Below the pieces are notes generated by a model. It did not search any database. It was not told the origin of the DNA and saw nothing but the letters and a program-made list of their open reading frames with translations. Source: Paracyclopina nana (lineage: Eukaryota; Arthropoda; Copepoda; Cyclopoida; Cyclopettidae). Taken from it: a stretch of 64,000 nucleotides of DNA. Both the position numbers and the translations under genes were made by a program. Shown piece by piece: positions 2,775 through 61,823 of the stretch. The DNA lies in NCBI GenBank assembly GCA_019096065.1, contig JAGUCH010000001.1, forward strand, positions 1,054,001-1,118,000, in the 5' to 3' direction. Every line of letters starts with the position of its first letter. Position 1 is the stretch's first letter.

Positions 2775-2780
2775 TCTATA
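2775..2780. repeat. Left target site duplication TCTATA
   Basis: Six bases immediately outside the left terminal repeat match the six immediately outside the right terminal repeat (23546-23551). A 6-bp duplication fits Polinton integration. Confidence 0.85.
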
Positions 2781-3164
2781 TGTTGTTAGTAAATTACGGT
2801 GAAACCGAAGTCAATGTGGTTCTGGTTGGCGTTCTGTTTTGGCTTGTAAATGCAGGTGTGAATGGGCTTGTAAAAAGGGTTGTCGTTGGCTTGTAAAACC
2901 GTTTGTGGATGTGCTTGTCAAAAAGTTGTAGATGAGGTTGTGAAAATTTTCTGACTTGCAGGGTGACTTGGGGAGTGAGCATTGTGCTGCCAAGTGTGTC
3001 GGTTACTGCATAGAAGTAACTTGACCTAAAAGAAGTGCTTCATAGAGAAAAGTAGTTTATTCAAAAATGCCCTTTGACATTCAATTTAAGGTAGATAAAT
3101 ACTTTTAAATATTTTCAATAAAGTGATACTAAAAAAATTATTTAGCATCCAGCCACATATTTGG
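2781..3164 (+). repeat. Left terminal inverted repeat of the Polinton
   Basis: It begins TGTTGTTAGTAAAT and is nearly identical in inverted orientation to 23162-23545. It contains short internal repeats around GGCTTGTAAA. At 3067-3090 it carries a copy of the first coding exon of the packaging ATPase with its splice donor, which is a dead duplicate at this end. Identity stops at about 3164, in the middle of what is ATPase exon 2 at the other end. Confidence 0.93.
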
Positions 3165-6565: not shown

Positions 6566-7488
6566 ATGCCCAAAATTGTGCAGTGCTTCAATTGTGGTAG
6601 CAAATTCAGCGCGTTTGCTGCATATCAACAGCACAAAACAACTTGTAGTAAAGCTCATCATGATGAAAATCCAGGAAAAAAATATAAAAAATTGGGCGAA
6701 TTTCGCACTCAGTATAGCTGCTTTGTATGCGCTTCTGTGTTTGAGAAAAAATCTCAGCTCGATGCCCACATCAATGTGCTTCATAAAGATGTAGGAAAAA
6801 GGTGGAAGTGTCATAAATGCAGTGCTACTTTTGCGAGACTGTTTGCCTTAAAGCTTCACCTCAAAAAGCAACACAGTGGCATGAAGCAATCTTATAACTG
6901 TCCATTGTGTGCTAATTTGTACATTCCAAGCTATGAGATTTTAGAGCAGCATTTGTCAACAGTGCATGGCTCATTACACGAAGAAAATGGAGGATTTTTT
7001 TCACCGTGCAGCAATGCTCTAAAAAACACATTGGAATGTTTCACGACCAACCTAAAGGCACTACAGATTGAAACGTTTGGACAATTAACCATGGCAAAAA
7101 AATTAATGAGTGCCATTTTCAAACTTGTTGAGCACAAAGTGAGTCAAAATTAACAAATCACTATTATTTATAGCAAATACTTTTTTGTTAAATTTTTTAG
7201 GTACTTGATAAAATTCGAGTGAAAATATCCATCATTGTTGTGGGAAAGTTCATCAAATTATCGCCTGACATGCAAGTGGTAGAAACGCAATTTGTGCCAC
7301 TACGCTCACACGCAGTTGAGTTCAATCCTGAGAGAATAAAGCATATGAAACGCATTATTGTGGACTTGCTCGGCCAATGCGAAGAACGCTCTCGTGATTT
7401 GTCTTTGAGTGGAAGTGGATGGACAGAAGACGGTCTGTTATCATTGAATTTGGAATTTTCAAAATGTAAAGAATTTGCTTGCTTTTGA
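6566..7488 (+). CDS. Polinton C2H2 zinc-finger protein with a GSGW motif
   Basis: Exon 1 is 6566-7138 and exon 2 is 7201-7488, with a GT-AG intron in phase 0. The product is about 286 residues. Four zinc knuckles follow each other: CFNC...C (C2HC type), CFVC...H, CHKC...H and CPLC...H. Exon 2 encodes a strand-rich part (VKISIIVVGKF) and ends with SGSGWTEDGLLSLNLEFSK. In many Polinton polymerases, a zinc-finger region and a similar SGW...L.L motif precede the polymerase proper. This may therefore be a detached N-terminal module of the DNA polymerase, or its first exons. A possible donor (GTAAAG) lies within the last codons at about 7465. The start at 6566 was chosen over 6488 because the extra residues look like leader sequence. 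Confidence 0.65.
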
Positions 7489-10097: not shown

Positions 10098-13000
10098 ATG
10101 CAGTTTGATGGCTCTGAAAAGTTTCATCATGTGCCACGTAGCAAATTTTTACATTTGCTTCCACTGTCATCTGCCCAAAAATCCTTTGAATACGCAGTAG
10201 CCATCAGCCTTTTTTACGAGAGTGTTGTCAATAGTAATGATTTTGGAAGTGGTGGCATTTTAGGCCAACTTGATTCTATCCTAAATGACCATTTCATACT
10301 TGAATCACCAAATCATGAGGATGGAGAAGAATGTGCTGAGATAGCAAGCGAAGAAGATTGGTTGCACAAGCTGAATATTGAAACGAGCTCTTTGACAAGA
10401 GCAGAGCGTCAGTTTGTACTCTTAAATGCAGCAAAACTTGATTTTTGTGTCAATCTCTTGGGCATATGGAAGAAAAAGGTGTATCCCATTGTGCTCGGAA
10501 TTGGTGAAGGAAATTCAGCCAAAAATAGGCGAAAGCATGTTGTCAACATCTTTAAAATTACTCTACACAAAGAAGATTTACCCGACAATCTTGGTCAACA
10601 CATGATGGACCCAATATGGCTAGATACCATGCAAAATCTATTTGCCAATGTCAACAAAACAGAGGAGGCATTATGGCTTGCTCAGCAATGCAGCGAATCA
10701 ATGCATGCACAAGAAGACCGTTGTGCTGTGCGAGCAAGATTTGGACGCGAGCTGCCATTCAAAAATGAAGATGCTTGCACATTGGAGCAGCAGCAACAAC
10801 AACGTGATCAAGAAGTGCTCCGAGTAGAAGAATTTTATTTTGCGATAAAAAATGTCCAAGGCTTTCTCAGGCAAAGTTATACCATTGAATCTGCAACACT
10901 GAGTGGCAGCAAATCAAAAGTGTATTGGCAAAATGCTACATTTTGTGTCAGGTAAAGGCATGTTGTTTACAAGCCATGTGCATTCATCACTCCCGGTTTT
11001 TTTTAGGTGCTGTGGGCCTTTTTATAGCCATGCCAAGCTCGCAGATCACACCAAATTTTGCTTGGCTAGGAGTGGACCCGTTCGCGAGTCAATGCCTGGA
11101 GATTTGAAGGTGCCCCAACTACATGAAACCTTTAAAAGGCATTGCGCCAAAGAGAGAGCAGAGATTGTGATCTATGCGGATTTTGAAAGCCTCTTGACCT
11201 CACCCGAAGTTGCTTGCCAAATTTGCCAAAGCTCGCCTGAAAATGCGAGAGGACGTTGCAAATGTCATGCATCAGTTGATAGTGGTATCCCAGCTTCAAC
11301 AAAAGTCCTGAATGTACACACGCCTATGGCATTTGGTTATGTAGCTGTTGATAGCTGTGGCAAGCTTGTACGGGAACATTTAGAGCTATTCCAAGATGAC
11401 GCATCATGCCACATGAATGGAAAGAAACGTTTTATTCAGCACTTTCTTGACCTAGAGCCTTTTTTCCAAGCTTTAATCAGCAAAGATGAGACACCAAGAC
11501 CTGTGAAAGCTGACTTGGATCGTTTCTTTGCCACCAAAGCCTGCGTCATTTGCGAACAGCCATTTGACTTTGGTCAGGATTACTATGGTGCAATGTACTA
11601 CAGAGGTCTTCGAGACAGAGGGCTGCTTGGCCAACGCATTGTAGCAAAGCAGAGGCCTGAGGACGGTGGGGAGCAAATTGTGCACCATCATCACCATATA
11701 AAAAAGGAATGGATCGGGCCGGCACACTTTGTAAGCTTTGTTGCGCATAGCACAAATGTCCAACTCATTTATATTCTTTCAGGTGTGCAACGTAGAAATT
11801 GGAAAGCACAAAAAAGTCCAAATTTTTCTCCACAACTTTAGTGGCTACGATTCTAGTCTTTTACTGGATGCACTGGATGATCCGAGAATAAAATTCATGT
11901 CAGCCATTGCAGGCAATACCAATCGCTTGAAATCTTTAACATTTAACATTTTCAGAATTTGTAAGTTTCAGCACATACTCTACTGTCTGTCTACCTATCA
12001 TACGCAATGCTGTTATTTTTTTTCTAGCCGACTCCTTGAACCATTTACCAGCCTCGCTGTCTACCCTAGTAGACAATTTGAAGCAAAGTTGTCATACGTT
12101 CCCTATTCTGCAGCAAAGCAGCCTCATCAATGATGAAGGGAGTAAAGAGGTGAACCCTGAAAAACTCCATGTGGCACAGCAAAAATCATATTATCCCTAT
12201 GAAGCAGCAACGTCAATAGCTTGGCTTAAATCTCAAACACAGCTTCCACCACCAAGTGCTTTTTCATCAGTCTTAACTGCTTCCATGGGTCTAAATGAAA
12301 CAGAATATGCATTTGCACAAAAAGTATTTCGGCTTTTGAATGTGCCAACATGTATGACTATTGTGCGATATACCTGTGGCTCGACTGCCTGCTACTGGCC
12401 GAAGTTTTTGAAGTGTACATGGAAAAAATGCACGAATTATTTGGACTGTATCCAAATTACTATTTGAGTAAGTCAATCATCATTGATCAGCTTTCTATTC
12501 AATTTTCAATTTTCACCATTTGCAGGCATGCCTGCCTATACATTTGATGCGTTCCTCTACTCAGAAAAAGTCCGCTTGCCGTTTATTCAAGATCGTACAA
12601 TGTACAGAGCCTTTGAGGACTCGGTAAACATATCTTGCTACCAAGACAAATTGAGCAATGTTTCAGCTACCATGATTTAGGTGCGTGGAGGTCTCTGTTT
12701 TGTCAATAAAAGATTGGCTGTTGCAGACGAACCTGGAGATGAAGGCCTACATTGGTCCACTTTATTGGTGGATGCAAATTCACTTTATTCTATTGGTGAG
12801 TGGTCTCGTGCATATGCTGGAAGCTTCAACACTGTTGATTTTACTACCTAGGTATGGTGCAAAAACTGCCTTTTAGCAACTTTGAATGGCTGACTGTTGA
12901 AGCCATCCAAATGTTTGACACCACGGGTCAAAGCTGGGACCTGGAAGGCGAATATGGCTATTTGTTGAATGTGGACCTTGCATACCCCGCTCACTTGCAT

Positions 13001-14399
13001 CGCGCACATAATGATTTTCCACTAGGTTAGATTTCTTTTTAAGTGAATGCTGCTTCATCATAGTTTTATTATTATAACTGTAGCTCCCACTCAAATGGTG
13101 GTGCCTTATGACATGCTGTCTCGGCAAACAAAACAACTCATGGTTAAATTAGGACGTACACGCTCAAGCATTGCCAATCGAAAGCTTGTAGCTACTTTAT
13201 TGCCAAAAAAAGGTTACAGTGTGCATTGGAAAACATTGCACTTGTATCTGCGATTAGGCCTTGTCATCACCAAAATCCATTCCATTCTCCAATTTAAGCA
13301 AAAGGCCTTCATGCAAAAATATGTGAACATGTGCATTGAAGCTCGCTCCAAGAGCAAAAGTTCTTTTGACAAAAAGCTTTTCAAGAGTGCACAAGTATCT
13401 CTTTTTGGCAAAACCATTGAAAATCTTCGTAAGAGAATATCGTTGAAAATTGTATGCAAGCCATCTCTATTGGAGAAGCATATGGCAGCTAAAACATATA
13501 TGCTGACACGACCCATCACAGAAAATATTGCAATGGTATTTCACCGACAAGACCACATTGTATTAAATAAATTTCCACACATTGGTAATTGATTGCCTTC
13601 AACCCAACTGCAATTCAACATTTACATTACTCATTATCTTTTAGGAGCCACCATTTTAGATTTGGCCAAAGCCTTCATGTACAAAGCTCATTATGAGTGG
13701 TTCATGCCTGCGTTGGGACCTTCTGCAAGCCTTTGCTTTGGCGATACAGACAGCTTGGCTTATCATTACATAAGCCAAGGTGGCAATGAAGACATCCTTT
13801 CGGCATTGAAGCCACACTTTGACTTTAGTAATCTACCACAGAATCACCACTTGTACAGCATTGAGCATGAAAATGCTATTTTTAAATTCAAAGACGAATC
13901 AGGAACAAAGGTGCGATTGTCGTCGGTGGTGGCTTTAGCTCCCAAAGTCTACTCGATCAAATATGTGCCCGCAGGACAAGCATTGGCAAGCCGTCAGCAG
14001 CCATTTGAGGACCATAAATGCAAAGGCGTGTCAAAAGTTTATGTGAAAAAAGAGTTGAGCCATGACCACTATTTGCAGGCACTATTGCAGGAAAAGCAAA
14101 TTTATGCATCATTTGCACAAATACGTAGGAGTGGACTTACCAAGCTTGAAACTGTGGAAACTCGAAAATCAGCCTTGACGAGCTTGTGTGTAAAACGACA
14201 CTACTTTGACTGTGCTATCCACTCTGCTGCATTTGGAAGTGTGCTCATTGACCAACTCGATGGTGAGTGCTTTCAATGTCGTGAGGAAAAAAAATTTGAA
14301 CTATGGCAGAGAAGCCTTCAGCAGGCAAAAAAACGCAAGTTCACACAGGACTCTGATGGAGGAGTGTCCTCGAGTGCAAAACGAACAAGGCTTGCATAA
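10098..14399 (+). CDS. Polinton protein-primed family B DNA polymerase, multi-exon, one frame break
   Basis: Exons read as 10098-10951, 11007-11730, 11783-11960, 12028-12467, 12526-12623, 12681-12795, 12852-13025, 13084-13584 and 13645-14399. All have GT-AG borders and matching phases. Landmarks in order: a Cys/His knuckle (FCVRCCGPFYSHAKLADH), exonuclease motif I (VIYADFESLL), an HHHH-IGPAHF region, exonuclease motif II (LHNFSGYDSSLL), polymerase motif A (VDANSLYSIG), the FGKTIENLRKR region and motif C (FGDTDSLAYH). These are diagnostic for the Polinton/adenovirus-type polymerase. In exon 4 the frame changes by one base between about 12335 and 12350, just before the conserved YLWLDCLLLAEVF stretch. 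That looks like a one-base deletion or an assembly error. The 280 N-terminal residues are unlike families I know and may belong with the zinc-finger/GSGW protein upstream. The 3' end overlaps the protease frame on the other strand by 99 bp. Confidence 0.92.
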
Positions 14400-14969
14400 A
14401 ATGTATTTACATCTTTGGTTGTATATGTAATCACAAATGTATTTTACAACACGCTCATCATTCTTCAATAATTGTTGTTCGCTATTATTGCCTTTGGCAG
14501 TCTTAAACAAAGCGCAAAAATGTCTTGAGTGACATCTCAAGCATGGGTCTTGGCTCAAAATAAAAGCAAGTGCATAATAGCCACAAAAATCAGAGAAATT
14601 ACTTTGAATTTTTTTATGGAACCTCACCACTTTAAAATGGCTTCCTTGCTGCTGAAAGATGTTTTGACATGCGCGAACAAAGTGCTCAATATTTGGGTCA
14701 AAAAAGCCGAGGGCTAAAGCATCAAATATATACAATATGTTGGATTGAGCTGATGCTTTAGCTCGAAGTATTGACAGGGAGACAAAATGAGTTCCTGCAA
14801 ATTTGCTTGGGCTCAAATTGACAATACAGCTACATCCTTCTTGGTGGCTGCCAAGCATCTTAGTTACCAATGACTCGAGTTCATCGCAAGCAAAGACGCC
14901 CAAAAAGTTGCAACTTAAACGAGAGCCCAGGCTGTGAAGATAGGTGCTGCTCAAGCCTGCTTTTTTCAT
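14301..14969 (-). CDS. Polinton adenovirus-type (Ulp1-like) cysteine protease
   Basis: The product is about 222 residues from the ATG at 14969. The catalytic layout of adenovirus-type maturation proteases is present: His61 in GTHFVSL, Asp83 in YIFDALA, Gln122 in KKIQS and Cys129 in FCGYYAL. Spacing is close to that of adenain. In Polintons and adenoviruses this enzyme processes capsid precursors during virion maturation. The start lies only 15 nt after the stop codon of the capsid gene on the same strand, so the two may share a transcript. The last 33 codons overlap the 3' end of the polymerase on the opposite strand. That Cys-rich tail (CKPCSFCTRGHSS) may or may not be real coding sequence. 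Confidence 0.9.
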   Translation of the reverse strand: MKKAGLSSTYLHSLGSRLSCNFLGVFACDELESLVTKMLGSHQEGCSCIVNLSPSKFAGTHFVSLSILRAKASAQSNILYIFDALALGFFDPNIEHFVRACQNIFQQQGSHFKVVRFHKKIQSNFSDFCGYYALAFILSQDPCLRCHSRHFCALFKTAKGNNSEQQLLKNDERVVKYICDYIYNQRCKYILCKPCSFCTRGHSSIRVLCELAFFCLLKASLP

Positions 14970-14984: not shown

Positions 14985-16466
14985 TTAAAAATCAAGGGCT
15001 ACTTCGCGATCACCATTGATGGTCAGCATTCGATGGGTGGACGTGTAAAATACAATTTGGAGTGGCTCAGATGGTGGTTCTTCAAAAGTAATTTCCACAC
15101 CAATATTACCTATTATTTTAGAAAAAAAATGTTTAAGTTGAAACGAGCATTTGCAAGGACAACTTACCTTTGGCATCCAGCCCCAAATGTGAATGGTACC
15201 CAGCACAGCCGCAAAAACTTCGATCAAGGCTGAAAATTGTGTAGAGATGCTTGAACTCCTCTTTAGTAATTCCAATTGTTGGACTGTTTGTAACACTCAA
15301 ATCAGACAGCAATGAGATGTATTCGCGATCATAAGAATTTTCCCTAAATTTTGGCTCATATCTCGTGGAGGGAAAAGGTGTACCATTCACTTTGAACTGA
15401 AGGCTCGCAATGTTCCAATTTTTAAAGACAAATGAGTTGACGCTCATTTTACCAGATATAGCCGAATTGGGGACAATTGCGAGCAAACACAGGTGTGGCA
15501 AAATACCATTATGAAGGCTTGGAATATAGGTTTGAGTCAAATTAGCAGGGATTGCATGAAAAGATACATTGCCTTGAATGTATGGATACAGAGCTGGCGT
15601 TCTTAGTAGGGCTGCTGTCTGAGCATCTAAAAGCTGACTCACGACTTTGTGTGATCGCATTTTGAGTGTGAGGCTGACAAGTTCAATTTTCAACTTGTCC
15701 TTAAGTGCATCTTTAGCAATGAAGCAAAATGCATCAGGCGAACGAGTCAGCTCAATCCTGATGTTGACTTCTGATAGCAGCATCCTTGACATGTTAAGAA
15801 CGTCCACAAAAAGTGGCATGCTAAAGTGAATTTCACCATTACTGTCTAAAAACTCCTTTCTGCGATCATTGTAGCCAGATGCTTCAGCCGTTTTTTCTGT
15901 GGTTTCACAATTGGCTGGCAAGTCTGGCTTCCAAAGCATAGACTTCATGCCGCATTCCTTTGCAACAGGTCCGTAGCTGAAAAGGCTTTCAAAAAAGGCT
16001 TTGTATGGATAGCCACCTACAGGCAAATTTGTCAATTCCACTCCATTAAAGCTCACAGCGACCCGGCTAAACAAGGCTTGAGGTAGCAAATTGACAAAGC
16101 TGAAATCTGTTTGATCTTGAGGAGGACCTATAAAGCATCATTGTTGCAATGAAGCAAATTAGTTTTTTTAAGCATCATGAATTCTTTACCTTCGCTTCCA
16201 TCATCTTTCAGTTCAAGTATTTTCAGCTTGCCAAATAGTCTGGTTTGTTGTAGATCAAAGAAATCGTAGCTAAGCCCTGGCACGTTGAACACAACATTTC
16301 CATGTTGTGACAAAGCATTAAAAGGCTGATAGAACAATTCTTCGCCTCCCAGCAACACTTGATCTCGTTGCGGTTGAGTAAACAAATTATACCTTGATTG
16401 GCCTTGCTCGTAGATTGATGTCACAATTTCGCCCAATCCGGGGTGATCCGTATTATAGCCTGCCAT
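14985..16466 (-). CDS. Polinton major capsid protein (double jelly roll)
   Basis: Three exons (16466-16190, 16127-15168, 15109-14985) join in phase and give about 453 residues. Recognisable capsid stretches are GGYPYKAFFESLFSYG, then VNIRIELTRSPDAFCFIAKD, ALYPYIQGNVSFHAIPANL, VFKNWNIASLQFKVNG and the C-terminal strand motif EPLQIVFYTST. These correspond in order to the Polinton major capsid protein, often annotated in arthropods as F54H12.2-like. The protein is expected to trimerise into hexon-like capsomers. The frame is intact. Its ATG is 56 bp from the divergent ATG of the TBP-like gene, and its stop is 15 nt from the protease ATG. It is the best-preserved structural gene here, together with the penton-like gene. 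Confidence 0.93.
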
Positions 16467-16522
16467 GCTCGTTGCTTAAAAGAATACTCGCCCGATGCAC
16501 TCTCTTAAGTCATCATTCCACA

Positions 16523-17161
16523 ATGTTCATTCGTTCAGTTCGCACGTGTTTTTGTGGCCAGTTCCTGGATATTTGTAATATCAAAGGTTCAGTAAAAATA
16601 TGTGGACAAGTGGATTTGGACAATTTAATACAGCAGTGCCAAGCAAAGTTTCACATCAAAACAAGACGTTTTCACAACTTTGTGGTGCTATATTTTTATC
16701 CATCAAGTTTGCGAATCACCGTTTTTCAACGTCGCAAAGGTCACAGCAGCTTTCATGTCAACTGCACTGGGATGAAATCTATAACTGACATCAACAAGTG
16801 TTTGGAGAAAATTGAAGCCATTTTCACGTGTAACAAGGATGACATTTTCTTTCGAATTGACAACATTACTTGCAAAAGTTCCATTTTGCACCACCATATG
16901 AGACAATGTTCATCCACGCAGGGTAAAATTAATTTGCTGTGGTTGAGACAAGCAGTGCTGGATTTGTACAAGGAGAAAATTGAACACGCACGATTCCAAC
17001 CCGAAGTCTACTCTGCTTTAATTGTACGTGGTTTTGGCGCTTCTACCTTAATCTATGAGAATGGGTCAATGCTTGTTTGTGGAGCAAAATATTATCATCA
17101 GTTGCACGAAGCCTCCCTTGCAATTTACACAGCATTATGTCAGATGACTGCCAACACTTGA
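16523..17161 (+). CDS. TATA-binding-protein-like factor encoded by the Polinton
   Basis: An intact 212-residue frame with the two-repeat layout of TBP. Repeat 1 runs from about residue 17 (ICNIKGSVKICGQVDLDNL) through RRFHNFVVLYFYPSS to NCTGMKSITDINKCLEKI. This follows the TBP pattern of a beta saddle, CTGAKS and a long helix. Repeat 2 runs from FFRIDNITCKSSI to FQPEVYSALIVRGFGASTL, YENGSMLVCGAK and a helix (EASLAIYTAL), matching the second TBP repeat (Y/FxPExFPGL...SGKVVLTGAK). Divergence from cellular TBP is large, so this is not a recent host capture. It diverges from the capsid gene with 56 bp between start codons. It overlaps the TFIIB-like gene by 25 bp. The expected role is DNA bending at promoters and TFIIB recruitment, probably on element genes; that role is inferred. 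Confidence 0.82.
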   Translation: MFIRSVRTCFCGQFLDICNIKGSVKICGQVDLDNLIQQCQAKFHIKTRRFHNFVVLYFYPSSLRITVFQRRKGHSSFHVNCTGMKSITDINKCLEKIEAIFTCNKDDIFFRIDNITCKSSILHHHMRQCSSTQGKINLLWLRQAVLDLYKEKIEHARFQPEVYSALIVRGFGASTLIYENGSMLVCGAKYYHQLHEASLAIYTALCQMTANT

Positions 17162-17890
17162 GTCAAGCAGACGACCATCAAACAGGCGATGTTATATGCC
17201 TGTTGTGTGGACTCATATTGGCAGAACGAGTGTCATTTATTGCACCCTTGGGAAGTGTGACAAACCCTTGCGATCGAGATTCAATTGAAGGGATCCAAGA
17301 TAAACTCGACAAAAATAATGAGCCATCTTCGGCTTGCAAGGTGGGCAAATGGGATCATTTATTTGACATTATAGTGAATGTGTGCTCAAATGCCAATTTA
17401 CCTCCTCGGTTTGCAAAGCAAGCACATGACTTGTACCTTCATATAGCCCGAAAGGAAAAGATGCCAAAATTTGTGCTGAGAAAAAGGCGATTTTATTCGC
17501 AGCCTTGTATGAGATTTTGCAAGAAGAGCAGTGTCCGCTCACATTTCGCGAATTGACAAGCCTCGACAGTGATCTCAGATCATCGCTCATATCTGCTGCT
17601 CACATCAAATACTTTGCACAACAAAAAATACTAAGCCAGATCAATTAGTGGACCGATTCTGTGGGAAACTCAACCTCTCTCAAGCTCAAGCTTGTCAAAT
17701 TCGGAAACTCATTCATACCTCCGGCCTTAATCATTACTGCAATTGTAATCCTGCCACCATTGCTGCTAGTTTCATAAAAATATTTTGTAATTTGCAAAAA
17801 ATTGATGTACATGTTAAAGATATTTGCAGCGTTTCGGGCATTAAAAAGCACACTTTGGTGCGATTCTTGAAATGCTATGGCATGAACTAA
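17137..17890 (+). pseudogene. TFIIB-like transcription initiation factor, frame interrupted twice
   Basis: Three successive frames together show a complete TFIIB plan. 17137 to about 17465: an N-terminal zinc ribbon with the signature GDVICLLCGLILAERV, close to cellular TFIIB, then the start of cyclin repeat 1 (LFDIIVNVCSNANLPPRF). About 17470 to 17645, one frame over: the end of repeat 1 (KKAILFAALYEILQEEQCPL). About 17648 to 17890, another frame: cyclin repeat 2 (VDRFCGKLNLS ... DICSVSGIKKHTLVRFLKCY). Each junction needs a change of one base; the first is at an A5 run. The gaps are too short for introns. This may be a recently broken gene or may hold assembly errors. It starts inside the last codons of the TBP-like gene, so the pair is expected to be expressed together. 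Confidence 0.8.
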
Positions 17891-17939: not shown

Positions 17940-18329
17940 ATGCCTATTGGAGGCAACTTTGAAAGTGAACTGATGCCTGGTGTAGGCGGACTGCTTAAAT
18001 TTCATCAAGGTTCTCATATTCAAAGTGGATCCGGGCTTGGCGCAATTTTCTCATCCCTTTTCTCAAAGATCTTGCCATTTGCAGCTAAAGCTGGTAAGGC
18101 TGCACTTTCGGGTGTGAAACAATTAAGCAAATCCGAGCTGGGCAAAAATTTGAAGGCAACTGCTTTAAGTGCAACAACCGATGCTCTCGCCGATTTGGTC
18201 CAGGGACAAGATCCAACCGAAGGCTTAAAGTCAAAACTTGATGTGGCAAAAGAGGAGATTGCATCAAGCTTGAGAAATCTCTCTGAAAAAACTGCAAAAA
18301 GCGAAAAGCGGATGCTGCGACAACAGTAG
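17940..18329 (+). CDS. Polinton small virion-like protein (pVI/pX-type candidate)
   Basis: A 129-residue intact frame. The Gly-rich N-terminus (GNFESELMPGVGGLL) is followed by an amphipathic hydrophobic stretch (LGAIFSSLFSKILPFAAKAGKAALSG) and a Lys/Ala-rich helical half. Small proteins with a GLGxFxSSLFxxxLPFAxKAGKA pattern recur in Polintons and related adenovirus-like elements beside the capsid genes. They are thought to be minor virion or core proteins with membrane-active or DNA-binding properties. The assignment rests on remembered family pattern and position, not on a search. Confidence 0.65.
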   Translation: MPIGGNFESELMPGVGGLLKFHQGSHIQSGSGLGAIFSSLFSKILPFAAKAGKAALSGVKQLSKSELGKNLKATALSATTDALADLVQGQDPTEGLKSKLDVAKEEIASSLRNLSEKTAKSEKRMLRQQ

Positions 18330-18384: not shown

Positions 18385-19532
18385 ATGGCATCTAACTGGA
18401 GCTCCGTTGAGGCTAAAAAGCTTTAAAACAGCTGTATACATCGATTGGAAGTCCCATTGCGTTTGCTGGTCCACAGACAATTTACAAGTACTTCAATGGT
18501 GCACTCACCTATCATCAAATCCGACAGTTTTTGTCACAGCAAGATGTGTACACAGCCTATAGGCTCAATCATCCTCGCGCAGGAGCCACTCAATGTGGTT
18601 TTCATATAAAAACGACAATTGGTTGAAGTTGATTTGTTAGATGTGAGTCGATATGCTGAACACAACGATCAAGTGCGATTCCTATTATGCGTAATTGATT
18701 CTTTTACCCGCTACTTGTGGGTAGGAGTGCTCAAGACAAAAACTTGTCATGAAGTGACAAAGGTTTTTAGACAAATGTTGGATCGTGAAATTACTCCGCC
18801 CAAGGTGGATGCAATCTGTAGTGACTTGGGTAAAGAATGGACAGGAAGCCTATGCTGGCTCTCTTGAATGAAAAGTCCATTCAATTGAGACACTCGTATG
18901 TGTTGGGACATTGTCCCAAAATTGAACGAGCTCAAGCTTCGTTGAAAAGACTGATGCTGGCTTTTATGGATGAAAACCGGACCGAGCGTTACATTGACCA
19001 CCTTGACCTAATTGTTAGAACATATCGTACAAGGCAACATCGCATGATACAAATGAGCCCTCAAGAAGCTGAACTTCCAGAGAATCATATGAAATTGAAG
19101 CATATTTTTGAAAAAAACTATGCTTGCGTGAAGCGAGAAAAGCCAACTTTTCAATTGGGACAAATTGTTAGAGTGACCAAGCTGGAAACATTGTTCAATC
19201 GCGCCTATGATTTGCAGACCAACAATGAGCCTTATGTTATTTACCGCATTAGGAGGGTGCACAAAATACCAACGTATGATTTGAAAGTTTTAAAAACTGG
19301 TGAAATTGTACAGGGGTCATTTTCAAAACATCAATTGGTGGCCCTGGATCCAAGCATGAAGTTTAGCATTGGAGAAGTGCTAAGAAAGAAGGGAGCAAAA
19401 AGTCTCATCACATATCATAATTTACCAGCTTCATATCAAGCTTGGCTGCCAACTCGACTAGTTGAACAAGTGCTTGCTCAAGGAAATATTCCCCAATTTC
19501 AGCCTCTTGCAGCCTACGTCAATAAAAAATAA
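18385..19532 (+). pseudogene. Polinton retroviral-type integrase, frame interrupted three times
   Basis: The integrase plan is complete but spread over shifting frames. A possible start at 18385 (MASNWSSVEAKK) runs into a frame break at an A5 run near 18415. The N-terminal region follows in the next frame to about 18610 (TYHQIRQFLSQQDVYTAYR). The catalytic core continues from about 18619 with the first Asp (VEVDLLDVSRY, CVIDSFTRYLW) and the second Asp (ICSDLGKEW). A third break lies near 18845. After it come the catalytic Glu (PKIERAQASLKRLM), an SH3-like part (FQLGQIVRVTKLETLF) and a chromodomain-like C-terminus (FSIGEVLRKKGAKS...YQAWLP). Three single-base changes imply that the integrase is inactive or that the assembly has indels. 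The stop codon overlaps the penton-like start as TAATG. Confidence 0.88.
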
Positions 19533-21240: not shown

Positions 21241-21930
21241 TTAAAATTTCCATTTGCAAAAGGTTTTTGTTTTTGCACAGCCTTTCCCGTACTGGATCAG
21301 GCCTTGTTTTGCTTTCCTCGGTCGTGGTGTGTACTCGTTTGCATCTGTAGGTGGAGGTACAAACTTTCGCTTTGCTCCTCGCGTTTTCACTGGTGGAGGT
21401 GAAGGTGGTCGCGGGCGTGGAGTTGCTCTTGGCGGTGGTGGTGGTGGTGGTGGAGGCTGCGGATTGTCTGTTTGCGTACCAAATGTAGCATTGTTGGGTC
21501 TGCTGTGATAGGCTTCCATATGGCTCTCTACACTTTGGGGCCCACTAAACAACCCATCGCAAATCGGGCAAGCCACAAGCCCGTCTTCATCATCATAATT
21601 TGTGCCAACATCAGCAGTTGTAGTAGTCGTAGCAGCAGAAGGAGCAGGTTCTAATGCCTCGTTGGTGATGCTGTCTTCTTCGAGAGGAATCAATGGGGAT
21701 CGATCTTGTTCCTCGTTGCCTACTACTTGCTCAGCCCTTGTTGGGTGTGGAGGTGATCTGGGCGGTTCAACTGGCATGGCTTGATCAGAACACTCTGCAG
21801 GGGCCTGGTTCATGCGTGACAGGTCTTGGTTATCGGCAGTATCGATGCAATGCAAAAGTTTGTCGTACAACTTAGTAGGTACAAGATATAATGTGGAGAA
21901 ACTGCCTTTAAATGACTTTGGTCTAGGCAT
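21241..21930 (-). CDS. Polinton proline-rich protein with one C2H2 zinc finger
   Basis: The product is about 229 residues from the ATG at 21930 (MPRPKSFKGSFSTLYLVP). A proline/acidic low-complexity region is followed by one classical finger (CPICDGLFSGPQSVESHMEAYH, about residues 120-141), a poly-proline block and a basic C-terminus with possible nuclear signals (RGAKRKF, RPRKAKQ). Small zinc-finger proteins of this kind lie between the minor capsid and packaging genes in some Polintons. I cannot assign a function. The start is 7 nt after the stop of the next gene on the same strand, so a shared transcript is likely. Confidence 0.65.
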   Translation of the reverse strand: MPRPKSFKGSFSTLYLVPTKLYDKLLHCIDTADNQDLSRMNQAPAECSDQAMPVEPPRSPPHPTRAEQVVGNEEQDRSPLIPLEEDSITNEALEPAPSAATTTTTADVGTNYDDEDGLVACPICDGLFSGPQSVESHMEAYHSRPNNATFGTQTDNPQPPPPPPPPPRATPRPRPPSPPPVKTRGAKRKFVPPPTDANEYTPRPRKAKQGLIQYGKGCAKTKTFCKWKF

Positions 21931-22379: not shown

Positions 22380-23259
22380 TCAACTGTTTTTCACAAAACA
22401 TACTGGGATGCCTGCAACATGAATAAAACCAAAAGTTATGATGATGGGACACAAAAGCAGAGTTTCTCTACCTTCGTGCGAGAAAATCTTGCTTCGCAGG
22501 CGAACTATATCGCTTTGTGAGGCGTGCATGTCAAGAATTAGGTAGGAATAAGGCGTTCTTGTTGCAGCCAGATAACTGTTGACAATAAAAGATGATTGAT
22601 AAGGTGCAATTTGCGAGCTCAAGGTTGAAATTTGTCGCTGTGAACGCACTGATTTCATCAAAATCAAGTATGTTGCATTCAGACTAATGGTGCGTAAATG
22701 GGGCCCTTCACCAAATAAAACTTGTGATGCCACCAACGTGCTCGCATTCAAGTGTCTTGAGCCTAAAGGAAATAATTTTTGTTGGCATGTTGAATGTTGG
22801 TCGAGACAAAAACATACCAACAGTATAAAGTTGATGTAGTTCACCAAAACTTTGCAGCGAATCATCGAAGATGGCAAAACTGCCTTCTTTTTTATAGCTG
22901 GCTAAAATTTCTCGTATTTCTTCATAGGGTGGAATACCTTCAATAAGTCTGGTAATCAAACCATTTTTTAAAAGTGTTTGGTAAATGGGCTGATACTCTT
23001 GATAGAAAAGCAGTTTGACGGGAGGATTGGGATAGATGAGTTTGTCTGCCTCCAATAGAAGATTTTGTATAAATGTTGTTTTTCCAGAGCCTAAATTGAC
23101 TTTCGGTCAGCATAAATGAAAAAAAAAAGATTCACCTTGTATTTACCTGCTGGACCACACACCAAATATGTGGCTGGATGCTAAATAATTTTTTTAGTAT
23201 CACTTCATTGAAAATATTTAAAAATATTTATCTACCTTAAATTGAATGTCAAAGGGCAT
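22380..23259 (-). CDS. Polinton FtsK/HerA-type genome packaging ATPase
   Basis: Four exons (23259-23236, 23180-23147, 23090-22818, 22762-22380) join in phase by GT-AG introns and give about 237 residues, the usual length. Walker A (CGPAGSGKTTFIQNLL) is split by intron 2. Walker B is SFAIFDDSL. The downstream block (SRHLNASTLVASQVLFGEG, ATYLILMKSVRSQRQISTL, YSYLILDMHA) is the sensor/arginine region of A32-like ATPases. The enzyme would pump DNA into the capsid. The 24-nt first exon and the first 19 nt of exon 2 lie within the right terminal repeat, so the promoter must be in or beyond the repeat. The frame is intact. Confidence 0.9.
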
Positions 23260-23545
23260 TTTTGAATAAACTACTTTTCTCTATGAAGCACTTCTTTTAA
23301 GTCAAGTTACTTCTATGCAGTAACCGACGCACTTGGCAGCACAATGCTCACTCCCCAAGTCACCCTGCAAAACAGAAATTTTTCACAACCTCATCTACAA
23401 CTTTTTGACAAGCACATCCACAAACGGTTTTACAAGCCAACTACAACCCTTTTTACAAGCCCATTCACACCTGCATTTACAAGCCAAAACAGAACGCCAA
23501 CCAGAACCACATTGACTTCGATTTCACCGTGATTTACTAACAACA
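23162..23545 (-). repeat. Right terminal inverted repeat of the Polinton
   Basis: This is the inverted copy of 2781-3164, with only scattered substitutions. It contains the start codon and first exon of the packaging ATPase, plus the beginning of its second exon. Confidence 0.93.
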
Positions 23546-23551
23546 TCTATA
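23546..23551. repeat. Right target site duplication TCTATA
   Basis: Matches 2775-2780 directly outside the other end of the element. Confidence 0.85.
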
Positions 23552-41111: not shown

Positions 41112-44100
41112 TCAATGAGCCTCCTCCATCTTCATTGCATTCTCAATGACTGAGGCAATGTTTTGTTCAGGGAGGCTCAGCTGAGCATGGCTCAAGTTGA
41201 TGGTGGGCGCTGATTGGCCGCTCAGCACTGAGTCAGCTAGCTCAGCATGATCGGTGACCCGTGTGACGGTCATCCGCCGATGCGCCGGCACATTCTCATC
41301 AAACTCCATGTCATAGTCATCTTCATAGTCCGACTCATGGCCCTGCTCATGGGGTTTTTGAATTTTGGCGCCATCATCATTTGGCTCACCAGAGGCTGAG
41401 TTTGTGGAGTCGCGAGATGATTCACCTGAAATGGACAAAACTTGTTAGAAAAAGCCCATATATTTTTTTCTCGTTTCAGCAAGCAAAAAACTGACTTTAC
41501 GCTGTCAAGCTGCATCGGTACATTTCACTTGACGCTTTCACGCAACCTCAACAGACTCCGCAACTTATTTTGCTCAATATTTATTACAACCAAAGCGAAA
41601 GCTAAGGGCTCGATACTATATCCCGACCATTTTTAAACCATTTCCTTTAGCTAAAATCAATTTGTTAGCTGACTAAAAAAAATTAATATGACGTAATGTC
41701 AGCTCTTTCTATCTAGGCCTTTGAAAAGTAAACATACTTTGATGCTGGTGTTGGTGGTGTTCATGGTGGCAAACTGAGTTCATGGCATTCTCCTCCTTGA
41801 TCCTGGCCAGCCTTTTCTCATCATCTGGACTGCTGCAGGGTGCATGCGTCTTCCAGTGAGTCTTGAGGCCCGACACACTGGTGTAGCTCTTGCCACAAGA
41901 GTCACACACATAGGGCTTCTTGCCATGGTGCACATGCGTGTGGAGCTTCATGTGCACCCTTTGGGTGTAGTCCCTGCAGCAGGTGGGGCAGCTGTAGGGT
42001 TTCTCCCCAGTGTGCAGCCTGAAGTGTGTCTTGAGGTTTGAGGTGGAGCTGAACCTCTTTCCACACACCTTGCACTCATGTGGCCTTTCACCTATATAAG
42101 AGCAAAACAGTAAGTAACCAAAGTGAATGTATAATTTTAGGCTCTCCATACCTGTATGCACCAGGGCATGTTTGTCCTTGTGGGCGAGCTGTGTGAAGGA
42201 TTTGTCACAGCTGTCACACTTGTAGGGCCTTTCACCAGTGTGCGTCCTGTGGTGCACCTTCAGGTTGGAAAGCTGGCCAAAGAGCTTGTCGCAAATGTTG
42301 CACCTGTACTCATACTTCCCGTTCACCTTCTTGAGCGTGTAGGGCAGCCCCTTGGAGCCCCTCACACCTGCAGGTGACGCAGGTGCTTTGGCTTTGGCCT
42401 GCTTCGCATCCAGCTCGGCGTCCTGCCTCAAAGGCAGGGGTTGCTTCAGGGCTCCAATCAGGGCTGCAGGGCTGTTGTTGTTGTTGTTATTTTGCCAGGC
42501 CCTGGAAGAAGCAGGTGGCTCCGGCACCTGTGGCAGGCTGATGGCAGGTGGGGGAAGTCTCCCAGCCAAAGCCATGACTTCAGGTGGTGGCAAGGAAGAT
42601 TGCTGTTGTCTCTGGAGGATGTTTTCAATGTCAATCGAGTCCCTCCTGGCCTGGATGCAGGCAGGGTTATACTGGCCTGGCCTGGCGTAACCAGGCAGCT
42701 CCTCAGCTTTGACAGGGCTCGGAGTCGACCTCTGACTGGCTGATCCGGAGGAGTTGTTGCTGCTCAGGTTCACCGGGTAGAGGTGTCCGGATCTCCGGCT
42801 CAGGTCCAGCACACTGTCATCACACTGCTGCTGGGGCGAGGCCGAGCCCACCCTCATTTGGTAGTGGGGCGAGACGTTGGAGTTGTACCCCGAGGAGGAC
42901 TCTGACGCGGGGCTCCGGTGGCCCAGCCTCCTGGCTGCGAGCACGTGCTGCAAATGCCTCACGGCCTCTTCCTTGTCATCCTCCACAGCCTGGGCCACCA
43001 TCAGCTGAACTGGAGCCTGCTGGGGCTGATCCTGAAGCTCAGCCTGAGCCTGGGGATCGATGACAAAGACCTTGCGCTCGTAGATGTGGTTGTACATGAG
43101 CCTCCGCTCCCGCGGGTATTTCATGCGCAGGCTGAACTCCTCGGAGTACCAGACGAGCAGCTCCTCGTGGGGGTTGATTTGCTTGATGGCCAGGAAGTAA
43201 ATGTCCTGGCCTTCCTGGTAGGCCACCAGGTTCTGCTCGATGAACGAGTAGGCCGGCTGCACGTGCTTCATCCAGTTGGAAGTGCTGTTGTCCTTGCCGT
43301 CCCGGATGAAGGCCACCTTGCCAGTGATCTTGTTGAAGATCCGCCAGAAGTACTTCCTGTCCATGGTGGGGTTGGCGTTGGCCTCCTCAGTCGTCACGAT
43401 TTTGCCCACGAAGGGGCCGAACCGCGTGCCCCGAGGGATGAGCACGTTGGACCACACCCCCAAGATGCCGCCCTCCACGTCCGCCTCGTCCTCGTCCGCT
43501 GTCACGTATAAACTGGTGGTGGGGCGCAACGAGAGGTTGAGTGGCAGAGAACGCGTGGCGCGGTCTGGTAGCTCTGGCGGCAGCTCCGTAGAGTCCACAA
43601 CGCAAAACATGCCTAACTTGTGCAGCTGGTCCTCTTTCATCGTGCTCCATTGGGCCCAGTATTCATCCATCTGCAAATTTTTTAAAAAATGAAATTTTTT
43701 CAAATTTGAATTTTTTAAAATTTTTTGGGGGGCATTACGTGAAACAACTTGGTGATGTTGCCGTCCTTCAAATAGGCCTCTATGAGGCCTTTCTTTTGCC
43801 GAAGCTCGTCTAACTTTGCAGCTATCAAAAGGTACATTTGTTCGGTTTCGTCGAACCTAAACAGCGTTTCGGAATAGGGATCAGATTTTTCTGCCGCCTC
43901 AGCCGATTCGGGAGGGGTGTGCTGACTGTTTGGCCTAACTACCAATTCGAGCGGCTCATTTGGGGTTTTTGGCCTCACGACCAATTCAAGAGGTTCATTG
44001 GGGGTGTGCTGCTGTTGTGGCCTTACGACCAATTCGAGCGGCTCTAGGGTTTCTTCTTGGCTCTCAAAAGGCCGAAAAAGCTTGAAAGGCCTATTTTCGG

Positions 44101-60600: not shown

Positions 60601-61823
60601 CCTTATTTATTGTTTTTTGTACACTATTTTCAGGCTCGTCTCCAGCTAACAATCGGGCCAAGGACTTTCACTTGGGATCTTCGCCTAATTTCGACCCAGC
60701 TCACATCCAAATCAAAGGGGCCAGCCCTCAGCCTTTTGACACATCAGCTCATGATCCTCTTGCATTTATGCACGAAATCAGCCCCTCTCGTAATTCATTT
60801 TTATCATCAATAATCATATGTCAACAGAGAACCGACAACTTATCATATTTGGCATTCGACATTTCAGCTTCATTTCAAGCTTTTCATGTATTGAAAATGT
60901 ATTTGCTCTATTAAGCTTCATGGGGACATTTCGCTTGTGATTTCCACGCAACCTAATCAGAGTACGCAACTTACTTTGCTCAAGATTTATCACAACTTAT
61001 GCGTAACTTGAAGTTGCATTGCTTATCGAAACGCTAGCACTCTTTCGAAAATGCAATGTACCACATTTGGCATTCAACATTTCTGCTTCAGTTTCGAAAG
61101 AGTGCTAACGTTTCGATAAGCAATGCAACTTCAAGTTAAACATAAGTTGTGATAAATCTTGAGCAAAGTAAGTTGCGGACTCTGATGAGGTTGCGTGCAA
61201 ATCACAAGTGAAATGTTCCCATGAAGCTTAACAGCGCGTTGTCAGTTCTTTGCTCGTAGGCGTTACATTGCATTTTCGCTCTATTCTTTATAGAATCACG
61301 CGCTGCATGCAAACTGGAATTGGAGGACACCATTTCGAAGAAACGCTGCGAATTCGCCATTAATAGTCGAAAAAGGAGGAACATTGAGCGTGGCTTAACC
61401 GACAAAAATTACCCTCAGTCCACGTGGAAGCCAAAGGGAATTTTAGTGGCTCATTTGCTTGAGCACAAAGTGAGTTTTATCGATTTTTACTTATTTTGAA
61501 AAAGGCTAATAAAAACCTTTTCAAGGGCGGCATTTCCAAACTTGTGAGGATTCCCGACCGGCCTTTGTTCGCAAGTGCAGCAGCCGATGGGGGAGTTCGA
61601 GTAAGTATAAAAAACCTAATTACTCAAAATAATTAGATAATAATTATTATTGAAATTTCCATTAGCTCTGGGATTGCTCCAAATTCGAAGGCTCCAATTT
61701 GGCCAATAAAGCTCATCGTTTATTCAATCACCACAATAACTCCCAAATTAATGGCCTTGCCGTGTCGGCCGATGGCCAACTTTTGGTTTCTGGTGCCGAA
61801 AATGGCTCGGTATGCGTGTACAA
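57605..61823 (+). CDS. PIK3R4: VPS15 / PI3-kinase regulatory subunit 4, 3' end missing
   Basis: Exons 57605-57877, 57934-59548, 59699-60442, 60634-60789, 61294-61469, 61526-61600 and 61666-61823. The start [14 protein letters not shown] carries the N-myristoylation glycine typical of VPS15. The kinase-like domain has [16 protein letters not shown] and TDFASFKP (DFA, not DFG, as in other VPS15 proteins), then [12 protein letters not shown]. Long HEAT-repeat exons follow, then the start of the WD40 propeller ([40 protein letters not shown]). It is the scaffold of the VPS34 class III PI3-kinase complex in autophagy and endosomal sorting. The last visible exon ends in a splice donor (GTGAGT). The remaining propeller blades are not seen in the following 2.2 kb, where an opposite-strand sulfotransferase lies instead. 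Confidence 0.93.
60830..61262. mobile_element. Long foldback MITE-like element in VPS15 intron 4
   Basis: This is the largest copy of the family. Two arms (about 60915-61035 and 61105-61258) are near-perfect inverted repeats containing CTTACTTTGCTCAAGATTTA and its complement, plus GCATTGCTTATCGAAACG and its complement around a short centre. The right end is TGTCAGTTCTTTGCTCGTAG. The left arm is interrupted at about 60850-60910 by sequence resembling the centre. Confidence 0.75.

Follow-up and report, generated by a model that had tools for sequence, protein, structure and literature searches.

In many discussions, Polintons figure as relatives or ancestors of the giant DNA viruses. Their vertebrate representatives, the Mavericks, are 12.7-24.6 kb long; the excerpted text describes eight core genes, none of them an initiation factor, and does not contain the word 'transcription' (PMC8097293), and a second paper nowhere mentions TBP, TFIIB or 'transcription' (PMC11071308). 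The algal virus CpV-BQ1 encodes a TBP and two TFIIB proteins, which are thought to redirect the host RNA polymerase II (pol II) (PMC12085832). Here we present the analysis of a stretch of 64,000 nt of contig JAGUCH010000001.1 of Paracyclopina nana (the window, whose positions are used below), which holds an element with the features of a Polinton in which a TBP-like gene is followed by a TFIIB-like gene, together with a description of related elements in the same genome. Probably, the two proteins form a sigma-like promoter-recognition module that uses the host pol II. Polintons are already known; what is new here is the general-transcription-factor module within them. No Polinton encoding TBP or TFIIB was found among the matches listed for the open-access literature, a scope that excludes Repbase and most subscription papers. 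PMC8097293, PMC12085832, PMC12529657 and PMC12917281 are cited from excerpts.

The TBP-like protein

A first-pass annotation, made from the letters of the window alone, had assigned 16523-17890 to two genes, one TBP-like and one TFIIB-like. The pair is present, but 16523 is an internal ATG and the TBP open reading frame (ORF) begins at 16418. The profile searches on which that annotation had staked its case returned matches to both TBP and TFIIB. The window TBP ORF matched PF00352 with 40.6 bits over two stretches (cut-off 22.9); a second member of its lineage (lineage A) scored 41.3 bits, and lineages C, D and E scored 26.2, 35 and 29 bits, respectively. A structure match recovered the two-repeat saddle fold of the TBP family, and in the structural alignment the window protein was 21-23% identical to cellular TBPs. 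A profile led by the database protein P0001 aligned with 173 of the 178 core columns of the host TBP (probability 98.1, 17% identity), and the search of the PDB sequences with the TBP family profile ranked TBPs first with strong E-values.

Cellular TBP has four phenylalanines that intercalate into DNA, and the four corresponding columns hold F or Y in all seven TBP-like sequences. Within the stirrup motif YEPEL, the second Glu, which is E188 when counted on the yeast TBP chain, is retained in six of the seven. Both E184 and E188 of yeast TBP are critical for the contact with TFIIB, and according to the excerpted text both are missing from ORF24 of Kaposi's sarcoma-associated herpesvirus (KSHV) (PMC12529657).

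The TFIIB-like protein

Starting with an ATG at 17137, the TFIIB-like gene shares its first 25 nt with the end of the TBP ORF, in agreement with the adjacent, overlapping genes reported earlier; overlooked at that time was that the TFIIB frame of the window copy shifts twice and lies in three ORF pieces. Each piece matches the A2 family profile, which was built from relatives with open frames, and the third shares 62% identity over 87 aa with the final part of the open frame of L002, another copy of lineage A. The zinc ribbon is weak when taken alone (PF08271, cut-off 29 bits), with 18 and 21.5 bits in lineage A, 22.1 in D and 7.2 in B, and it is unlisted for C and E; its Cys/His pairs (CxH or CxC, then CxxC) were recognized by eye in all five lineages. 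Among single proteins, the cyclin core exceeds its cut-off of 23.6 bits only in lineage C (38.8), with 23.3 bits in E, 21.2 in A (L002), 14.3 in D and 13.3 in B. The A2 profile matched residues 83-287 of human TFIIB among the PDB sequences with an E-value of 4.9e-25, and the best 12 of its 16 PDB matches were TFIIB, archaeal TFB or BRF-type proteins; the TFIIB-like gene that had been read from the window was thus borne out, with its two cyclin repeats. As judged from profile scores, the protein resembles TFIIB much more than BRF1 (67.9 versus 16.4 bits for the host proteins, 91.9 versus 22.6 in PDB).

Between the last ribbon Cys and the core motif there are 62 aa in lineage A, 46 in B, 25 in C, 52 in D and 22 in E, a shortening that the first reading had not noticed. 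In human TFIIB this region comprises about 94 aa, counted from what we take to be the last ribbon Cys (Cys37) to Pro131 as placed by the profile alignment. Because the region is short, the protein is filed as a TFIIB-related factor rather than as TFIIB; going by these lengths, lineages C and E cannot have room for both a B-reader and a B-linker.

Two sister copies, L004 and L005, match the window over the 801-nt TFIIB stretch with 99.5% and 99.1% identity, respectively. Their TFIIB genes are broken too and share the first and second pieces with the window copy, and the breaks are therefore largely inherited and not the slip of a single read. L002 and L003, also of lineage A, have TFIIB as a single open frame of 273 aa. 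This subfamily of lineage A seems to have multiplied without an intact TFIIB of its own, possibly with help in trans. In a lineage D copy (L018:1673-2869), the TFIIB ORF runs into a long basic tail, part of which resembles by eye the small ORF that lineage A has between TFIIB and integrase; a fusion is possible.

Distribution in the genome

The genome (92 Mb, 10 contigs) was searched with the window TBP and Pfam families as queries. Further copies were found, some of them only about 34% identical, and the same genome holds ordinary host genes for TBP (L013/L015), TFIIB (L028) and BRF1 (L029). With the lineage C integrase as query, at least 31 matches were obtained and grouped by place into 24, inverted E-derived pairs being counted once. 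Both genes of the pair were present at 14 of these 24 places, namely five of lineage A (the window, L002, L003, L004, L005), three of B (L008, L009, L010), one of C (L011/L033), two of D (L018, L019) and three of E (L025, L026, L027), and at 10 of the 14 both frames are open. In all five lineages the putative capsid gene (-) stands head-to-head with TBP (+), followed by TFIIB and integrase, and TFIIB either overlaps TBP or directly adjoins its end. A one-off host insertion, named beforehand as an outcome that would overturn the finding, is contradicted by this recurrence across five lineages of one genome and was rejected.

The two lineage D loci (contig C9, approximately 0.81 and 0.83 Mb) are mutually inverted, about 19 kb apart and 90% identical, and may be the arms of one structure, in which case the count becomes 13 of 23. 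Five further places hold a TFIIB remnant with no TBP match: the D-like L041 and L042, and three E-derived elements, of which five of the six arms were examined. In these E derivatives (L034/L045, L035/L048 and L043, on C9, C7 and C3), integrases occur as inverted pairs; two of the elements were compared, and their arms are 99.6% and 99.2% identical over more than 7 kb. The derivatives have lost TBP and all of TFIIB but its tail, and inspection by eye shows no capsid-like ORF beside this remnant; a single deletion explains the loss of TBP with most of TFIIB and that of the capsid gene. Possibly anti-apoptotic genes of the elements are an IAP-like gene of lineage C (L049:6329-6976, -; BIR 73.9 bits, plus RING) and ORFs that look IAP-like by eye in an E derivative (L034:2376-3624, +).

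The remaining five places belong to lineage F, whose integrase is more distantly related (about 30%). One copy showed no TBP or TFIIB profile match within the surrounding 27.7 kb, and none was found in the examined parts of three others. Three of its loci (L036, L037, L040; C4, approximately 2.80-2.82 Mb) represent a second Polinton branch, and two more F-type polymerase matches (C3, 4.11 and 9.95 Mb) have no integrase match.

Divergence and selection

Between lineages, identity is 22-53% for TBP and 19-44% for TFIIB, as expected from the old acquisition that the first-pass annotation had proposed. Close copies (L002/L003 in A, L008/L009 in B, and those of E) are 99.2-100% identical over 3.2-3.7 kb. 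Near-identical copies next to divergent lineages indicate recent mobility of an old module.

The ratio of nonsynonymous to synonymous rates (dN/dS) was calculated with gene overlaps left in; near-identical pairs of B and E have too few changes for a ratio, and comparisons with saturated dS (A, C-E) give none. In lineage B (L008 versus L010), dN/dS was 0.21 for TBP and 0.19 for TFIIB, and the lineage D comparisons gave 0.28 and 0.34. For the lineage A TBP (window versus L002), the proportions of nonsynonymous and synonymous differences were 0.155 (pN) and 0.741 (pS). At the level of substitutions, these values show purifying selection on the pair.

The trees of TBP, TFIIB and the putative capsid all group C with E (99-100%). 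The deeper order differs, with D joining C/E in the TBP tree (70%), B joining C/E in the TFIIB tree (92%) and A joining D in the capsid tree (76%), so that the trees do not prove that the pair was inherited vertically as a unit.

Database searches

Among 5.8 billion proteins, none matched the window TBP at an E-value of 1e-3. The five-lineage TBP profile yielded a single protein at E-values up to 0.01, P0001 (194 aa; longest contig 1103 nt), with an E-value of 1.9e-12, and the TFIIB profile yielded no protein in the same type of scan. IMG/VR gave nothing for the TBP profile, the TFIIB profile, P0001 or the integrase. This absence is weak evidence, because like scans with the host TFIIB and host TBP were also empty, although giant viruses encode both. 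In the best 50 rows from a viral structure library, eight rows carrying a TBP or TFIID name show 8-14% identity with the window protein, and the top three rows, which are unnamed, 15-18%.

Organization of the window element

The features of the element are listed in Table 1. Its inverted ends enclose the pair, which lies between the putative capsid gene and the integrase as had been claimed. Inverted ends, rve integrase and a family B polymerase of the presumably protein-primed type, the latter two via homology to lineage C, support the earlier assignment of the element to the Polinton type.

Table 1. Features of the Polinton-type element in the P. nana window
Feature	Position	Strand	Remarks
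Left terminal inverted repeat	2777..3164	+	388 nt, 97% complementary to 23162-23549
Family B DNA polymerase region, several ORFs (broken)	10098..14399	+	via ORF 10933-11841
Putative capsid gene	15133..16475	-	two ORF pieces, 15133-16137 and 16128-16475; head-to-head with TBP
TBP-like gene	16418..17161	+	PF00352 40.6 bits; alternative start 16523
TFIIB-like gene, piece 1 (zinc ribbon and start of core)	17137..17556	+	PF08271 18 bits (cut-off 29); A2 profile 61.3 bits
TFIIB-like gene, piece 2 (other frame)	17430..17648	+	A2 profile 49 bits
TFIIB-like gene, piece 3 (second cyclin repeat)	17573..17890	+	A2 profile 93.4 bits
Small glycine-rich ORF between TFIIB and integrase	17940..18329	+	adenovirus pVI-type likeness by eye only; no Pfam family
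Retroviral-type integrase	18417..19532	+	pieces 18417-18626, 18610-18867, 18834-19532; homology to lineage C integrase
Right terminal inverted repeat	23162..23549	-	pairs with 2777-3164; terminal inverted repeats checked in window element only

The flanks have CTAT in common, and a 6-bp target-site duplication is obtained only with the boundary shifted on one side. ORF 10933-11841 is 25% identical over 255 positions (E-value 9e-12) to the open polymerase frame of lineage C, which is DNA_pol_B_2 (77.5 bits in Pfam). A Pfam scan of ORFs 10098-10955 and 13047-13592, two further pieces of the region, revealed no polymerase match. With respect to an adenain-type protease, ORF 14301-14969 gave no Pfam match, and no search aimed at a packaging ATPase was made. 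Integrase piece 18834-19532 is 33% identical over 180 aa (E-value 2e-28) to the lineage C integrase, itself an rve protein (43.6 bits, cut-off 32.6), and the window integrase was matched over three stretches.

The capsid identity of the gene preceding TBP is putative. Its family (alignment A5) neighbours the pair in all five lineages, and the window protein matches that of lineage D with an E-value of 1e-15. A double-jelly-roll match was obtained for one of six members with only 15 bits (cut-off 27), the profile found no plausible relative in PDB, the two members examined had no PHROG, and the single-sequence fold model of the window piece was unusable (pLDDT 30).

Two ORFs in the element resemble C2H2 fingers, 6566-7153 (+, by eye) and 21241-21930 (-; zf-C2H2_4, 15.7 bits, below cut-off). 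Elsewhere in the window, 60905-61237 holds inverted repeat arms of 149 nt (93% complementary, spaced 35 nt), and a long host ORF at 41709-43856 (-), with a SET-like start and C2H2 fingers, looks Blimp-1-like by eye.

Proposed role and alternatives

DNA binding, pol II use and target genes of the pair are what we infer, for five or more Polinton lineages of this genome that would carry a two-gene initiation module. The TBP-like saddle with its four aromatics would bind and kink element promoter DNA, the co-encoded TFIIB-like protein would bind the C-terminal stirrup of the element TBP, and its zinc ribbon would recruit the host pol II, the pair thereby acting like a sigma factor for element genes. 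The most likely targets would be the capsid, integrase and late genes adjoining the pair, late and structural genes being suggested by the gene order. The element has its own DNA polymerase and no RNA polymerase gene was seen in it (no search aimed at one was made). Capture of the host pol II by the pair is the simplest reading.

Several observations weigh against such a module. The lineage B TBP scores only 15 bits in PF00352, under the cut-off, and the first Glu of YEPE is N or Q in all seven TBP-like sequences. Both genes of the pair are less constrained than the adjoining putative capsid gene (dN/dS 0.19-0.21 versus 0.06 in lineage B). With 22-62 aa for the B-reader/B-linker region versus about 94 in human TFIIB, an active role in initiation is no given. 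No promoter motif common to the divergent intergenic regions was found (6-mers; few sequences), and TATA-like scans of the window element revealed nothing common to all lineages; the short TATA-like stretches in these regions are seen by eye only. Finally, integrase and polymerase genes and ORFs that look capsid-like by eye occur in lineage F without the pair; Polintons can therefore manage without TBP-TFIIB.

The chief alternative is a decoy or brake: lacking a working B-reader, the pair would occupy promoters or the host pol II, start no transcription and silence host genes or the integrated element. The missing reader region favours it, above all the spacing that is too short in C and E. 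We consider it unlikely, since the DNA-kinking aromatics are retained, the Cys/His pairs seen by eye persist in the zinc ribbon, the part that docks to the polymerase, and the genes lie within the structural/integration block in all five lineages. Moreover, poxvirus VITF-3 illustrates that an odd TBP/TFIIB pair can be active (PMC12917281).

Service to pol III, to the choice of integration sites or to binding of the replication origin is a good deal less probable. The pair does adjoin the integrase, and Ty3 is reported to insert upstream of pol III genes (PMC8632968), a process in which TFIIIB takes part, which counts for this explanation, but the profile lies far nearer to TFIIB than to BRF1. 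A functionless pair, derived from host TBP and TFIIB genes or gene fragments that landed in a single element accidentally, is very improbable: the broken window TFIIB, with pieces shared by two sister copies, would fit, but not the recurrence of both genes with mostly open frames, nor the purifying selection, nor the low identity of the window TBP to cellular TBPs, which excludes a recent host copy. An artefact of weak profile matches, to which the sub-threshold single TFIIB-like proteins of A, B and D (with E just under) and the lineage B TBP might point, is hardly credible, chance similarity being rejected by the family profiles and the structure match.

A more specific version of the promoter-recognition module is offered tentatively: each lineage may have a private promoter code, in which a minimal pair without B-reader and B-linker evolves together with late promoters of its own and, like a two-part sigma factor, reprograms the host pol II. 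If so, animal viruses that integrate and measure 20 kb would have moved toward the transcription machinery of giant viruses with no polymerase of their own. Pair-bearing Polintons would be a small, integrating stage of such a machinery that depends on the host polymerase. The five lineages in one genome form a natural series of TBP-TFIIB divergence (19-53% identity) and a natural experiment on how far pol II initiation can dispense with parts of TFIIB such as reader and linker.

Comparison with known systems

Vertebrate Polintons/Mavericks likewise have inverted ends, a family B polymerase, an integrase and a capsid gene set, the capsid being putative in P. nana; unlike the P. nana elements, they have no initiation factor among the core genes given in the excerpts (PMC8097293). 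With the host TBP, TFIIB and BRF1 the element pair has its folds in common, but it is very divergent from these factors and the ribbon-to-core region of the TFIIB-like protein is shortened. Vaccinia VITF-3 is likewise an atypical viral TBP/TFIIB pair, which uses the viral RNA polymerase and has minimal sequence conservation (PMC12917281), whereas the P. nana pair presumably uses the host polymerase and its homology can be seen in the sequence. The late-gene TBP mimic ORF24 of KSHV is similar in its viral TBP fold, its conserved phenylalanines and its use of the host pol II on late promoters; as excerpted, it lacks the acidic residues contacting TFIIB and may not bind TFIIB directly (PMC12529657). 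Unlike ORF24, the TBP-like protein of the P. nana elements keeps one such Glu in six of seven sequences, and a TFIIB-like partner is co-encoded. CpV-BQ1 is alike in its virus-encoded TBP and TFIIB with the proposed redirection of the host pol II, but it is a free large algal virus, whereas the P. nana element is a 20-kb integrating element of an animal (PMC12085832).
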